Source of the DNA: Microbacterium sp. SORGH_AS_0969
Lineage (GTDB): Bacteria; Actinomycetota; Actinomycetes; Actinomycetales; Microbacteriaceae
Reading direction: 5' to 3'
Assembly: GCF_030818255.1 (NCBI RefSeq)
Contig: NZ_JAUTAG010000001.1
Coordinates: 248,001 to 312,000 of the forward strand
DNA: 64,000 nt
Shown: positions 38,714 to 58,337 of the stretch, piece by piece
How the letters are laid out: the number at the start of each line of letters is the position of its first letter
Position numbering within the stretch: position 1 is the stretch's first letter
Made by a program: the position numbers and the translations under genes
Notes under the pieces: model-generated
Database searches by the model: none
The model's input: only the letters and a program-made list of their open reading frames with translations
What the model was told of the DNA's origin: nothing

Positions 38714-39038
38714 CGCGCGTCGGCGTTTGCGGCCGCTCCGGCGCCCTGCCATCAGGTCGCCTCGCCGCCCCGGCGCGCTGCCACCCGGCGCACTGCCACC
38801 CGCGCCCCGCCGCCCCGGCCGTGCGGGCTCAGGGCGTTCCGGGCGCCCGGAGCGAGCGAAACTCCTGAAAAACCCGCGCTCGCACGCGAGGTCATCCTGC
38901 CACGGGGCGTCTCACGACGAAAAGTCAGGAGTTTCGCCCAAGCGAGAGAGCCGATGGACTCCTCCTCCCCCGCGGGAGTTGTCCACAGATCTGGCCCCAC
39001 AGCCGTTCCACGGCGGTCGGAACGGCCAGGGTGGGCCG
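38714..39038. other. Intergenic gap upstream of the AbiEi/DUF559 gene
   Basis: About 325 bp. The first 140 bp are C-rich low-complexity sequence with imperfect GCCACCCG-type repeats. The inverted-repeat element at 38856-38937 fills the middle. A CAGGGT box lies 6 nt before ATG 39039. No coding region is credible. Confidence 0.6.
38856..38937. repeat. Inverted-repeat element A (GCGAAACTCCTGA family, 82 bp)
   Basis: Left arm GCGAAACTCCTGA at 38856-38868 and right arm TCAGGAGTTTCGC at 38925-38937 are perfect 13-bp complements separated by 56 nt. The spacer has no similarity to the spacers of elements B and C beyond its length. Confidence 0.9.
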
Positions 39039-39887
39039 ATGGCATCCCTTCCTCCTCCGTCCGGAGAGAATCGCGATGTGGTGTGGACGACGCGCGAGCT
39101 CCACGCGGCCGGGTGGTCACGGCGGGCTCTCGCCCGCGCTGTCATCGACGGGACCATCAGGCGGGTGCGGCAGGGGCGGTTCGTCGCAGCCGACACGCAC
39201 GATGACGTCACCGCGGCGGCGCGTGTCGGCGGGCGGCTCGATTGCATCAGCCTCCTGGCGCTGCGTGGAGTGTTCGTGCACCGTCATGCGGAACGCCACG
39301 TGCAGCAAAACCGCTCGGCCAGTCGACGTCCCCCGGCTCCGGACGGCGTCGTCTACCACTGGCGCTCCTCGTCTGCACCGCGAGACTGCTCGACCGTCGG
39401 CCTCGTGGAGGCTCTCGCGCAGGCGATCCGCTGCCAACCGCCTCGATCGGCCATTGCGACGCTCGACAGCGCATGGCATCTCGGACTGGTGGACGAAGCC
39501 GACATCGCCGAGATCTTCGCGCGCGTCCCGCGTCGCTTCCGGGTGCTGCGTCGCCTGTTGGACCCGCGTGCCGAAGCCGGCACTGAATCGCTCGTCCGTC
39601 TGCTGCTTCGCCACCTCGGCTGCGACGTGGAGCTCCAGGTCCGCATCGACGGAGTGGGTCGCGTGGATCTCCTGGTGAACGGGTGGCTCATCGTCGAGTG
39701 CGACAGCGAGCGATTCCACGGCACGTGGCACGTCCACAAGAGTGACCGGCGCCGCGACATGGCGGCGCTGGAGCGCGGCTATGCCACGCTTCGCCTCCTC
39801 GCCGAAGACATCCTGTACCACCCGGACCGCGTCCGCACCGCACTCGAGCGCATCCTCGCGCACGGCGTACCCGGGCGAAACTCCTGA
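39039..39887 (+). CDS. AbiEi-like winged-helix plus DUF559 endonuclease-like protein
   Basis: A 282-residue protein of unproven function. Residues about 15-55 (WTTRELHAAGWSRRALARAV then IRRVRQGRFVA) match the AbiEi-type winged helix. The C-terminal 110 residues have the DUF559/Vsr-like restriction-endonuclease fold: VELQVRIDGVGRVDLLVNGW, LIVECDSERFHG with the likely catalytic Asp and Glu, KSDRRRDMAALERGYATLRL, and EDILYHPDRVRTAL. Start ATG 39039 follows CAGGGT by 6 nt. Its last codons (R-N-S-stop) are formed by the left arm of repeat element B. Such proteins are common in Actinobacteria; here it may act on the flanking repeats, which is inference. Confidence 0.8.
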   Translation: MASLPPPSGENRDVVWTTRELHAAGWSRRALARAVIDGTIRRVRQGRFVAADTHDDVTAAARVGGRLDCISLLALRGVFVHRHAERHVQQNRSASRRPPAPDGVVYHWRSSSAPRDCSTVGLVEALAQAIRCQPPRSAIATLDSAWHLGLVDEADIAEIFARVPRRFRVLRRLLDPRAEAGTESLVRLLLRHLGCDVELQVRIDGVGRVDLLVNGWLIVECDSERFHGTWHVHKSDRRRDMAALERGYATLRLLAEDILYHPDRVRTALERILAHGVPGRNS

Positions 39888-39955
39888 AATTTTGGTCCTT
39901 CGAGCCTGACGAGACCGCTCCTGCCGCCAATCCACCGGATTCTCAGGAGTTCCGC
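39875..39955. repeat. Inverted-repeat element B (GCGAAACTCCTGA family, 81 bp)
   Basis: Left arm GCGAAACTCCTGA (39875-39887) and right arm TCAGGAGTTCCGC (39943-39955; one mismatch) enclose 55 nt. The left arm encodes the last residues and stop codon of the DUF559-type gene. Confidence 0.9.
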
Positions 39956-40000
39956 ACGACACTGCCCGCCGCTGCTGCTCGGCGACGTGCCGCGGCCCGG

Positions 40001-40060
40001 CCTGCGGTGAGCAGCAGTCAGGCGGGCCCCCGCCTGCGGTGGGCAGCAGTCAGGCGGGCC
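40001..40060. repeat. Tandem 28-bp direct repeat next to element C
   Basis: Two copies (40001-40028, 40033-40060) starting CCTGCGGTG and ending CAGTCAGGCGGGCC differ at a single base, with a 32-bp period. The second copy abuts the left arm of element C. Confidence 0.85.
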
Positions 40061-40139
40061 AAACTCCTGAGAAACAGAGCGGGCGCGGGCGCGAACCGGG
40101 TCTGGTTGACCTCGCGAGCGCGAATCTCAGGAGTTTCGC
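40058..40139. repeat. Inverted-repeat element C (GCGAAACTCCTGA family, 82 bp)
   Basis: Left arm GCCAAACTCCTGA (40058-40070; one mismatch) and right arm TCAGGAGTTTCGC (40127-40139) enclose 56 nt. Same geometry as elements A and B, with an unrelated spacer. Confidence 0.88.
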
Positions 40140-40217: not shown

Positions 40218-41325
40218 TCAGCGCCGGAAGCCCTCCGAGATGATCTCGATCAGCTCCTCGCGCTCCTCCACGGGCAGGAAGGCGCCGGCCGCGGCGTTCA
40301 GCTGGAACGCCTCGAGGTCGTCGAGGTCGTACTCGAACGCCTGCGCCAGCAGCCCCAGCTCGCGAGTGAGCGAGGTCGCGCTCATCAGGCGGTTGTCGAC
40401 GTTCACGGTGACCGAGAAGTCGAGCTGGTAGAGCAGGTCGAACGGGTGCGCGTCCATCGTGTCGCCCCACGCCGTGACGGCCCCCGACTGCAGGTTCGAC
40501 GGTCGGCGACAGCTCGAGCGTGATCTCGCGGTCGCGCACCCAGCGGGCCAGGTCACCGAAGGTGACCTGCACCTCTTCGCCCTCGCGCGAGACGACGTCG
40601 AGGTCGTTGGCGATGCGCACGCCGTGGCCGAGACGCAGCGCGCGCCCGTCGATGAGGGCGGAGCGGATGGATGCCAGACCGGCACCCTCTCCGGCGTGCA
40701 CGGTCGTGGGGAAGAACTGTTCCGCGAGGTAGTCGAAGGCCTCGCGGTGACGCGACGGCAGGAAGCCGTCCTCGGGACCCGCGATGTCGAAGCCCACCAC
40801 GCCTCGGCCGCGCCACGCGACCGCGAGCTCGGCGATGTCGCGCGCGTTGTCGTTGTGACGCAGCGCGGTGAGCAGCTGACCGACTCGGATGTCGTGACCG
40901 CGGGCGTCCGCGGCATCCTCTCCCGCTTCAATACCCTCCTGCACGGCGTCCACGACCTCGTCGAGGCTGAGGCCTCGGGTGAGGTGCTGTTCCGGAGCCC
41001 ACCGCACCTCGCCGTACACGACGCCGTCGGCCGCGAGATCTTCGACGAACTCCTTCGCCGTGCGCACGAGGCCCTCGCGCGTCTGCATCACACCGACCGT
41101 GACCGAGAACTTCTCGAGGTAGTCCTCGAGCGAGCCGCCGTCGATGTGGTCGGAGAACCACGTCTCGAGACCCTTCGCGTCGTCGGCGGGCAGGTCGAGA
41201 TCGATCTCGTCGGCCAGCTCGAGCACCGTCTGCGGGCGGAGACCCCCGTCGAGGTGATCGTGCAATGAGACCTTGGGGAGGTCGGCGATTCTCTTTCGCC
41301 CGATGCGGAACTCTTCGGATGCCAT
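40218..41325 (-). pseudogene. add: Adenosine deaminase, interrupted by a one-base insertion
   Basis: Converts adenosine to inosine. Catalytic features are present: zinc ligands in SLHDHLDGGL, the substrate loop in VVGFDIAGPEDGF, the HAGEGAG motif with catalytic His and Glu, and VTVNVDNRLMS for the last zinc Asp. The frame shifts after ITLELSPT: dropping one G from the GG at 40501-40502 restores LSPTSNLQSGAVTAWGDTMD, the family sequence. Everything else is intact, so a sequencing error or a very recent mutation is likely. Start ATG 41325 has a GAAGAG ribosome-binding site; ATG 41349 overlapping the deoA stop is possible. Confidence 0.85.
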
Positions 41326-41348
41326 GGAGCTCTTCTTCCCGGATGCCA

Positions 41349-42662
41349 TTACGCGGTGATCCGTTCGCGAACGAGCGGCGACGCGGCGGGAGCGGTGTCG
41401 CCGATCTCCAGCGCACCCTCGACGGCACCGAGAGCACGCTCGAAGCGCGACCCGTCGTCGGCCGACAGGGTGAACAGCGGCTGACCGGCGGTGACGGACT
41501 GTCCGACGGTCACGTGCAGGTCGATGCCCGCCGCGTGCACGACGGCGTCCTCGGCGCGCGCGCGTCCGGCACCCAGGCGCCAGGCTCCGATGCCGAAGGG
41601 CAGCGCCTCGACGCGGGTGACGACACCGGAGCGCTCGGCGACGACCGTGTGGGTCTCGCGCGGCGTGGGGAGGGCGGCATCCGGATCCCCATCCTGGGCG
41701 CGGATCATGCGGTTCCACACGTCCATCGCGCGGCCGTCCTGCAGCGCGGCCTCGACGTCGGCGTCGGGCTGGCCGGCGAGCGTCAGCATCTCGCGCGCCA
41801 GGGCGACGGTCAGCTCGACGACGTCGGCGGGGCCGCCGCCGGCGAGCACCTCGACCGACTCGCGCACCTCGTTGGCGTTGCCGATGGCGAGACCCAGCGG
41901 GGTGTTCATGTCGGTGAGCAGGGCCGTCGTGTTCACGCCCGAGTCGGTGCCGAGCGCGACCATCGTCTCGGCGAGCTCGCGCGCGCGGTCGATGTCCTGC
42001 ATGAAGGCGCCGGAGCCGAACTTCACGTCGAGCACGAGCGAGTCGGTGCCCTCGGCGATCTTCTTCGACATGATGCTCGACGCGATCAGCGGGATGGCCT
42101 CGACGGTGCCGGTGACGTCGCGCAGCGCGTAGAGCTTCTTGTCGGCGGGGGCCAGCCCCGTGCCGGCGGCGCAGATGACCGCGCCCACGTCGCGCAGCTG
42201 CGCCATGATCTCGTCGTTCGACAGCGCTGCGCGCCAACCCGGGATCGACTCGAGTTTGTCGAGCGTGCCGCCGGTGTGGCCCAGGCCACGACCCGAGAGC
42301 TGCGGCACGGCGACACCGAAAGCGGCGACCAGCGGGGCGAGCGGGAGGGTGATCTTGTCGCCCACTCCCCCGGTGGAGTGCTTGTCGACGGTGACCTTGC
42401 CGAGGGACGAGAAATCCATGCGCTCGCCCGAGGCGATCATCGCGTCGGTGAGCACGCGGATCTGGTCACGGCCGAGGCCGTTCAGCAGAACCGCCATCGT
42501 GAACGCGGACATCTGCGCGTCCATGACGTAGCCACGCGTGTAGGCGTCGACCAGCCAGCGGATCTCGCCCTCGGTGATCGCCCGCCCGTCGCGCTGCGCG
42601 CGGATGATGTCGACGGCGTCGTAGGCCTCCGGCACCGGTCCCTGAGCCTGTCGAAGGGTCAC
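41349..42662 (-). CDS. deoA: Thymidine phosphorylase
   Basis: Cleaves thymidine or deoxyuridine with phosphate. The 437-residue protein has AFTMAVLLNGLGRDQI, the phosphate loop VDKHSTGGVGDKITLPLAP, SGRGLGHTGGTLDKLESIPG and SSIMSKKIAEGTDSLVLDVK. The first residues ([10 protein letters not shown]) are encoded by a dispersed repeat, so the ancestral N-terminus was probably near VPEAYDAVDIIRAQRDG. The GTG start overlaps the cdd stop. Confidence 0.95.
   Translation of the reverse strand: MTLRQAQGPVPEAYDAVDIIRAQRDGRAITEGEIRWLVDAYTRGYVMDAQMSAFTMAVLLNGLGRDQIRVLTDAMIASGERMDFSSLGKVTVDKHSTGGVGDKITLPLAPLVAAFGVAVPQLSGRGLGHTGGTLDKLESIPGWRAALSNDEIMAQLRDVGAVICAAGTGLAPADKKLYALRDVTGTVEAIPLIASSIMSKKIAEGTDSLVLDVKFGSGAFMQDIDRARELAETMVALGTDSGVNTTALLTDMNTPLGLAIGNANEVRESVEVLAGGGPADVVELTVALAREMLTLAGQPDADVEAALQDGRAMDVWNRMIRAQDGDPDAALPTPRETHTVVAERSGVVTRVEALPFGIGAWRLGAGRARAEDAVVHAAGIDLHVTVGQSVTAGQPLFTLSADDGSRFERALGAVEGALEIGDTAPAASPLVRERITA
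42637..42661. repeat. Dispersed palindromic repeat at the deoA start
   Basis: A GGTCCCT-GAGCCTGTCGA-AGGGTCA unit, inverse orientation of the copy in accD. It encodes deoA residues 2-9. Confidence 0.85.
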
Positions 42663-58108: not shown

Positions 58109-58137
58109 TTGACTACACTTCGAAGTGCAAACAACGT
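58109..58137 (+). promoter_or_regulatory. Candidate promoter of the rib operon
   Basis: TTGACT (58109-58114) and CAACGT (58132-58137) are separated by 17 bp and lie just before the riboswitch, as expected for a conventional promoter with a leader. Confidence 0.5.
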
Positions 58138-58278
58138 GCTCCGGGGTCGGTGAGAATCCGAACCGGCGGTGACAGTCCGCGAACCCCTCCGCCTGTGCGG
58201 TGGGGCCGATCCGGTGGAATTCCGGGACCGACGGTGATGCGACGGGAAACCGACGCTAGTCCGGATAGGAGGCAGCAC
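58138..58278 (+). ncRNA. FMN riboswitch (RFN element)
   Basis: The leader has the conserved RFN pattern: CTCCGGGGTCGGTGAGAAT, then CCGAACCGGCGGTGACAGTC, a variable CCTCCGCCTG stem, CGACGGTGATGCGACGGG, and the closing AGTCCGGATAGGAGGCAGCA. It lies 60 bp before ribD and should lower riboflavin gene expression when FMN is plentiful. The embedded AGGAGG suggests that access to ribosome binding or termination could be the control step. Confidence 0.95.
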
Positions 58279-58337
58279 GGACGGCGCATCGCGCCTTCCC
58301 GCTGGCCCTGCCCCGACGCCGCGGGAAGGACAGGGAA

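Follow-up and report, generated by a model that had tools for sequence, protein, structure and literature searches.

RAYT proteins, the partners of the paired short repeats known as REPINs, are transposases of the HUH/Y1 (IS200-like) type, and Vsr endonuclease and the homing endonuclease I-Bth0305I are nucleases of the EDxHD type. According to the work on GI REPINs, 71 bp separate the repeat starts, and repeat groups are linked to particular genes (PMC3116915). For the antitoxins of type IV toxin-antitoxin systems, two co-operating monomers of AbiEi are reported on inverted repeats, bending the DNA, and a non-co-operative or weakly negative binding mode is reported for Rv2827c (PMC7319586). 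A Vsr-type restriction endonuclease domain, MTES_1575, has been described within a giant HEPN protein, in passages that do not mention repeats (PMC3710099). The locus reported here lies in a stretch of 64,000 nucleotides from Microbacterium sp. SORGH_AS_0969 (contig NZ_JAUTAG010000001.1, positions 248,001 to 312,000; the whole stretch is hereafter called the window), where the gene P0001, encoding a nuclease of Vsr type behind an AbiEi-like winged helix, is accompanied by three short elements (A, B and C), each consisting of two inverted arms.

Arm pairs of this kind are dispersed over the host genome, many relatives of P0001 are flanked by arms of their own, and the arms co-vary with the predicted recognition helix of the nuclease. 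Therefore, a partnership between element and nuclease, which had been proposed from the sequence of the window alone, gains support and is wider than had been guessed. We consider it probable that nuclease and elements form a cognate system that follows the logic of REPIN-RAYT and is built on an unrelated enzyme reading double-stranded DNA. Among the open-access papers covered by the searches (subscription papers and preprints being outside the scope), no description of a partnership between an AbiEi-Vsr nuclease and paired repeats was found.

The likeness to REPIN-RAYT consists of inverted pairs of short repeats that are mostly extragenic, a spacing near 70 bp (69 or about 80 bp here) and the linkage to a gene, which is itself flanked by repeats, here in P0001 and in 51 of 80 relatives. 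In contrast, the enzyme is not of the HUH type, the hairpin with compensatory changes described for REPINs (PMC3116915) has no counterpart in any excess pairing inside the arms, the spans change by helical turns, some lineages have a central palindrome, and the copies are counted in tens rather than hundreds. The resemblance noted in the sequence-only reading thus holds for architecture and fails for ancestry. Because enzyme class, missing hairpin pairing and helical quantisation differ, we do not regard the system as a member of REPIN-RAYT, although it may work alike. The tests made assigned neither enzyme nor repeats to any known family of elements; if more weight were given to the common logic, the system would be placed with the REPIN-RAYT kind.

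Comparison with the other systems leads to similarly partial likenesses. The N-terminal part of P0001 resembles the type IV antitoxins in fold (Streptococcus agalactiae AbiEi, Mycobacterium tuberculosis Rv2827c), but here it is extended by a nuclease domain, the gene has no toxin gene beside it, and the sites are dispersed genome-wide. P0001 resembles the Vsr-type nucleases in fold and has conserved acidic and histidine residues in its nuclease part; unlike Vsr and I-Bth0305I, it is fused to an AbiEi-like domain, and its gene occupies fixed intergenic sites amid intact presumed sites. The best Pfam match of its nuclease part is MTES_1575 (PF18741; E 1.6e-7, below the curated cut-off), the family that PMC3710099 places in a giant HEPN protein. 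Finally, copies with a common interior and sharp ends at the arms, as in a classical miniature inverted-repeat transposon, were seen in one relative (G085) and not in the host genome.

The nuclease gene and the arm pairs of the host genome

The first reading of a winged helix followed by a Vsr/DUF559-like endonuclease was borne out: the fold likenesses of P0001 are to AbiEi in the N-terminal part and to Vsr/I-Bth0305I in the nuclease part. Pfam matches of this protein up to E 1 were MTES_1575, AbiEi_4 and DUF559 only, with no HUH transposase domain among them, and nine residues (E183, D210, E220, D222, H227, D236, R237, R239 and D240) are invariant across 20 aligned proteins. Elements A and B do flank an intact gene, as previously read; its start codon is predicted and its stop codon (39885-39887) falls inside the left arm of element B. 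P0001 stands between intact copies of its presumed sites. Relatives at E 1e-25 occur in 91 of 199 genomes of the bacterial family; to our knowledge, no tested role exists for any gene combining AbiEi with DUF559/MTES_1575.

Table 1. Positions in the window of the nuclease gene, its parts and the three adjacent elements
Feature	Position	Strand	Extent	Remark
Element A	38856-38937	.	outer span 82 bp; arms 38856-38868 and 38925-38937	upstream of nuclease gene
Element B	39875-39955	.	outer span 81 bp; arms 39875-39887 and 39943-39955	overlaps nuclease gene end
Element C	40058-40139	.	outer span 82 bp; arms 40058-40070 and 40127-40139	between nuclease and adenosine deaminase genes
Nuclease gene P0001	39039-39887	+	282 aa	AbiEi-like N-terminal part with winged helix, then Vsr/MTES_1575-type nuclease
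Predicted recognition helix	39120-39149	+	residues 28-37	co-varies with arm triplet across family
Vsr/I-Bth0305I-like nuclease domain	39570-39872	+	residues 178-278	

The positions of A, B and C as elements with 13-bp arms were confirmed, while the arms proved not to be all identical: those of A are perfect, whereas the right arm of B (TCAGGAGTTCCGC) and the left arm of C (GCCAAACTCCTGA) have one mismatch each. With up to two mismatches, the arm has seven matches in the window, six of them within A-C; 100 shuffles of the window gave a mean of 1.54 and a maximum of 4.

The host genome is a single contig of 3,939,785 bases, which has 14 copies of the exact pair AAACTCCTGA-N-TCAGGAGTTT (backwards control 0), and in which GNNAAACTCCTGA with at most one mismatch gives 74 arms (5 for the control). 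When each plus arm was joined to the next minus arm starting within 150 bp, 50 of these arms formed 25 pairs, so that the arm pair is not confined to the window locus. All outer spans were either 81-83 bp (17 pairs) or 92-94 bp (8 pairs), namely 81 (2), 82 (14), 83 (1), 92 (1), 93 (3) and 94 (4), the two classes differing by about one helical turn. Four of the 24 unpaired arms match GNNAAACTCCTGA without mismatch, and each has a decayed partner (two to three mismatches), whose best span among 60-120 was 82 in three cases and 93 in one. Stacking the 50 arms extended the motif from the 13 bp first noted to about 22 bp (CGnGCGAAACTCCTGAGWWWYCG). According to a rough gene finder based on a simple codon model, 24 of the 25 elements lie outside genes or touch only a gene end, and 11 of those 24 sit between convergent genes.

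In the host genome, the 14 elements of the 82-bp class have no common spacer sequence (inner identity 0.352, 0.346 after shuffling). The earlier statement that the spacers share no sequence therefore stands for this class; it does not stand for the 92/94-bp elements, which have a central palindrome, nor for the homologous spacers of G085. Folding of the host spacers is near the shuffled level (mean z -0.63, one element at -4.6), and no extra pairing was found just inside the arms, where 58 of 150 symmetric positions are paired against 66.7 after permutation. This lack of excess pairing speaks for a reading of the double strand. It also bears on the possibility of an RNA-level signal, with the arms pairing as a terminator or attenuator: the location of the elements at gene ends would suit such a role, but the spacer is at least 55 nt, pairing does not extend beyond the arms, a spacing by helical turns would be superfluous for RNA, and the only Rfam match of the window lies elsewhere. 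We regard this explanation as extremely improbable, and a terminator or RNA hairpin was rejected on the grounds of the absent extra pairing and the helical spacing.

Nuclease alleles and their arms in related genomes

Exact elements are present in 12 of 198 same-genus genomes. All six genomes with a close ortholog of P0001 (at least 79% identity, host included) have them, as do six of the other 192 (Fisher p 1.2e-8, with the 198 genomes treated as independent and relatedness ignored). The exceptions are G104 (13 elements), G171 (6) and G016 (4), which carry a 56-60% identical gene with CCGCGCTCCGGA-type arms at the same chromosomal site as the window gene, and G009, G093 and G150 (one element each), which have no P0001 relative at E 1e-40. 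These six genomes count against a strict one-to-one link of gene and element. On the whole, the checks proposed with the sequence-only reading favour the partnership.

Pairs of CGCGCTCCGGA arms, found in 9 of the 198 genomes, show the converse. They are present in G007, G016, G104 and G171, whose own genes have these arms, and also in the host genome (2), G070 (3) and G084 (1), all carrying the other gene, as well as in G044 and G058 (1 each). Such mismatches of element and gene may be relics of a former allele. At one place of the host genome (G000:C1:1103417-1103591), two families stand only 14 bp from each other, with a pair of the CGCGCTCCGGA type at 1103417-1103494 and one of the GCGAAACTCCTGA type at 1103509-1103591.

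A locus was scored positive if the gene has, on either side, an inverted pair with the same 8-base arm. Among the 80 best of 198 named loci, whose titles read Microbacterium or Microbacteriaceae in all cases but one (Actinomycetes), 51 were positive; the controls were positive in 1 of 75 windows after a shift by 1.3 kb and in 3 of 1600 shuffles. In other genera of the family, 18 of 40 genes (picked from the listed matches, mostly the best) were positive, compared with 0 of 39 shifted windows and 3 of 1600 shuffles, and in other families of the class 6 of 17 loci, compared with 8 of 1700 shuffles. Because a shift by 1.3-1.4 kb puts the control windows largely into coding sequence, shuffle controls were added. 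Three paralogs of the nuclease in the host genome fail this both-sides test. Inspection by eye of 24 distant loci, the first ones of that set (L072-L095), showed that many have paired arms of their own beside the gene; also by eye, the arm sequences follow the clades of the protein tree.

The correspondence of arm and protein was localized with 64 loci having an ACTCC core, which were labelled by the next three bases and clustered. Clusters of equal label were more alike in helix 28-37 than elsewhere (of 3000 label shuffles, none reached the observed value when clustering was at 70% or 80%, and 10 did so at 65%), with no signal at 60% (7 equal pairs); the helix had been chosen after an earlier look at the same data. 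Residues 51-175 showed no co-variation with the arm triplet, and the nuclease part a small signal at 80% clustering (46 of 3000). Two mistranslated loci, L086 and L101, were excluded from this final test but had been part of the earlier look. For L071/L101 (Microbacterium sp. B19), the ortholog match in L101 has a length not divisible by three, and the record may hold a frameshift.

Grouped by shared flanking DNA with single linkage, 68 of 110 loci lie at the site of the window gene, 34 at a second site and 6 at a third, in a set that holds at least 7 genes twice (as a genome handle and as a named record) and, like its tree, includes L086 and L101 in mistranslated form. This concentration suggests that the genes are largely fixed and that alleles with other arms replace each other. 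At the nuclease site of G104, for instance, the flanks are 90-93% identical to those of the host and the nuclease 60%. In several genomes, two nuclease genes about 18 kb apart stand in opposite orientation, one per fixed site (for example L139/L146, L126/L147 and L106/L148).

A defence system would also account for the differing alleles that close relatives have at a single site. In this view, foreign DNA is the target of the nuclease, which the chromosomal pairs retain or keep in check, and specificity is as multi-allelic as in restriction systems; AbiEi has matches in the defence library. On the other hand, no methylase or toxin gene (DUF1814 included) adjoins P0001, whose nearest neighbours encode an alpha/beta hydrolase and an adenosine deaminase, and only tens of sites exist per genome. 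No relative emerged from the viral scan, as would be expected of a host gene whatever its role. Defence or self-marking thus appears improbable.

Span geometry, central dyads and copying of elements

As a general pattern of the family, the elements are about 60-100 bp long, have two inverted arms that differ by nuclease clade, and lie mostly between genes. Their lengths are quantised. Near nuclease genes, the AACTCC...GGAGTT distance (searched over 30-140) is 63-64 in 15 distinct elements and 73-75 in 100; seven more are scattered at 95-130, with none at 65-72 or 76-94. On the same scale the longer host class is 84-86, giving steps of about 10.5-11 bp. Fifty-three listed elements of 11 other genomes, tallied by hand and including 10 of the 13 from G104, have spans of 75-77 (47) or 86-88 (6) where 66-96 was allowed, and TAACTCCTGCA pairs of another genus have spans of 75-76, 85-87 and once 96. 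Steps of about one helical turn point to proteins bound on a fixed face of double-stranded DNA.

Some lineages have, in addition, a dyad at the centre. Five 92/94-bp elements of the host share the central palindrome CCGCGtGATCaCGCGG, with an information of 16.77 compared with a mean of 6.89 and a maximum of 11.97 after shuffling, in contrast to the 82-bp class, whose 14 elements of even length have no central dyad (3.13, shuffled maximum 4.34). A different dyad is present in G085, for which 16 of the 20 listed elements were used (9.56, shuffled maximum 3.03). In G275, from another genus, 15 of 19 elements have an even span and the central dyad TTCCgCGnAATTnCGcGGAA (18.97, shuffled maximum 3.38), and the 4 odd-span elements give 20.69 (shuffled maximum 14.31).

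Elements recur at orthologous places in related genomes. Stretches around listed elements align to element regions of the host in 8 of 10 cases from G104 and 7 of 7 from G070. Fourteen ortholog pairs were aligned and one misaligned pair (L192/L032) was left out; in the remaining 13, which represent 10 host sites (three compared with both relatives, and L024 and L043 outside the 25 pairs), the length is nearly constant and the arms agree at 320 of 338 positions compared with 546 of 751 for the spacers, the arm value being biased upward since exact arms served to find the partners.

Copying was best seen in G085, where exact CGAACTCCTCMA pairs number 35, compared with at most 5 in each of the other 197 genomes; G275 has 19 exact copies with a different arm. 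Among 20 copies examined in G085, neighbours at most 1.1 kb apart have spacer identities of 98%, 92%, 79% and 77%, and pairs more than 5 kb apart a mean of 0.44 (maximum 0.71), compared with 0.33 (maximum 0.46) after shuffling. The copies at 951481 and 967950, which are inverted and 16 kb apart, the latter beside the nuclease gene, agree at 24 of 24 arm and 38 of 54 spacer positions, while their flanks are at chance level right up to the arms. Spacer homology ending at the arms implies that units of about 80 bp were copied, and the nuclease may be the agent of this copying. In some neighbours the flank on one side is shared over about 20 bp, and tandem duplications are seen locally: at G085:C1:950700-952900 (L263), the right part of an element and its downstream flank are tandemly duplicated, leaving a single arm. 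There, 915 bp with three elements lie between two conserved genes, an interval of roughly 30-90 bp in many relatives and 0.2-4 kb in others.

One candidate empty site was found in the host genome, its left flank being 99% identical to G104; a clean empty site was rejected, since another repeat family (CCTGAGCCTGTCGAAGGGACC / CTTCGACAAGCTCAGCCACC, at G000:C1:3642064-3642217, L198, and also at L202, L203 and L204) replaces the element. Paired-arm elements occupy the L198 site in G104, G073, G016 and G171, and a pair with CCGAACTCCTGA arms does so in G007. Carriage by phages or plasmids was likewise rejected: the arm pairs in 10 viral contigs have distances of 70-71 and 89-92, which are not family spans, no relative of P0001 was found in viral contigs, and partial matches cover 22-68% of the protein in four plasmid records and 49% in one phage record.

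Arm-bounded copying of units is typical of miniature transposons, and elements persist in genomes without the matching nuclease, as they would if they belonged to another transposase and the winged-helix nuclease merely bound or policed them or had settled beside them. What such an origin does not predict is that, within a single chromosomal site, the arms switch together with the nuclease clade, that they change with the recognition helix, or that the spans are helically quantised, which is unexpected for ordinary terminal repeats; we hold it to be unlikely.

The main rival is regulation without movement, with P0001 acting chiefly as an AbiEi-like autoregulator, the arms near the gene as its operators, and the dispersed pairs as regulon or nucleoid-architecture sites under host selection. 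It draws on the AbiEi-like N-terminal part, on the reported co-operative binding of two AbiEi monomers to inverted repeats with bending of the DNA (PMC7319586), and on the presence of elements at orthologous places with arms better kept than spacers in the biased set above. Nevertheless, the elements stand on both sides of the gene, one of them at the stop codon, and the intervals between convergent genes that hold 11 of the 24 extragenic elements (by the rough gene calls) are a poor location for promoters. Sharp-ended copying of units and the conserved nuclease residues would also be left unexplained. This alternative is therefore rather doubtful, though it deserves more attention than the others.

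If nuclease and elements are indeed a cognate system, two nuclease monomers would bind the two arms on double-stranded DNA, as is reported for AbiEi on its inverted repeats, and would meet by looping or bending, which needs a fixed rotational phase. The paired nuclease domains might then nick or cut within the element, probably at the centre, where some lineages keep a palindrome, and repair or recombination could copy the unit to new places. Selection on the sites, or ongoing action of the nuclease, would preserve arms and span while the spacers drift. The broader proposition, that sampled actinobacteria harbour a class of enzyme-driven miniature elements in which the nuclease reads two double-stranded arms on a fixed face of the helix, acts centrally and copies units of about 80 bp, its gene being fixed at a few sites while specificity alleles are swapped, has in our judgement an even chance of being correct.

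The frequent AbiEi-DUF559/MTES_1575 genes are now tied to specific DNA sites, and the beginning of a recognition code (arm triplet versus helix 28-37), together with the helical-turn geometry, makes their function directly testable. Should the elements owe their spread to the nuclease, small dispersed repeats would be maintained in yet another way that is unrelated to HUH transposases, and the system would lend itself to comparison with REPINs, whose retention by bacteria is an open question.

Two minor observations concern the window. The adenosine deaminase gene adjoining element C (about 40218-41350, minus strand) has an apparent frame change near 40495, with profile positions 1-245 of 330 matched in one frame and the remainder seemingly in another, which may reflect a sequencing error or a broken gene. 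The sole Rfam match at gathering scores is an FMN riboswitch at 58133-58281.
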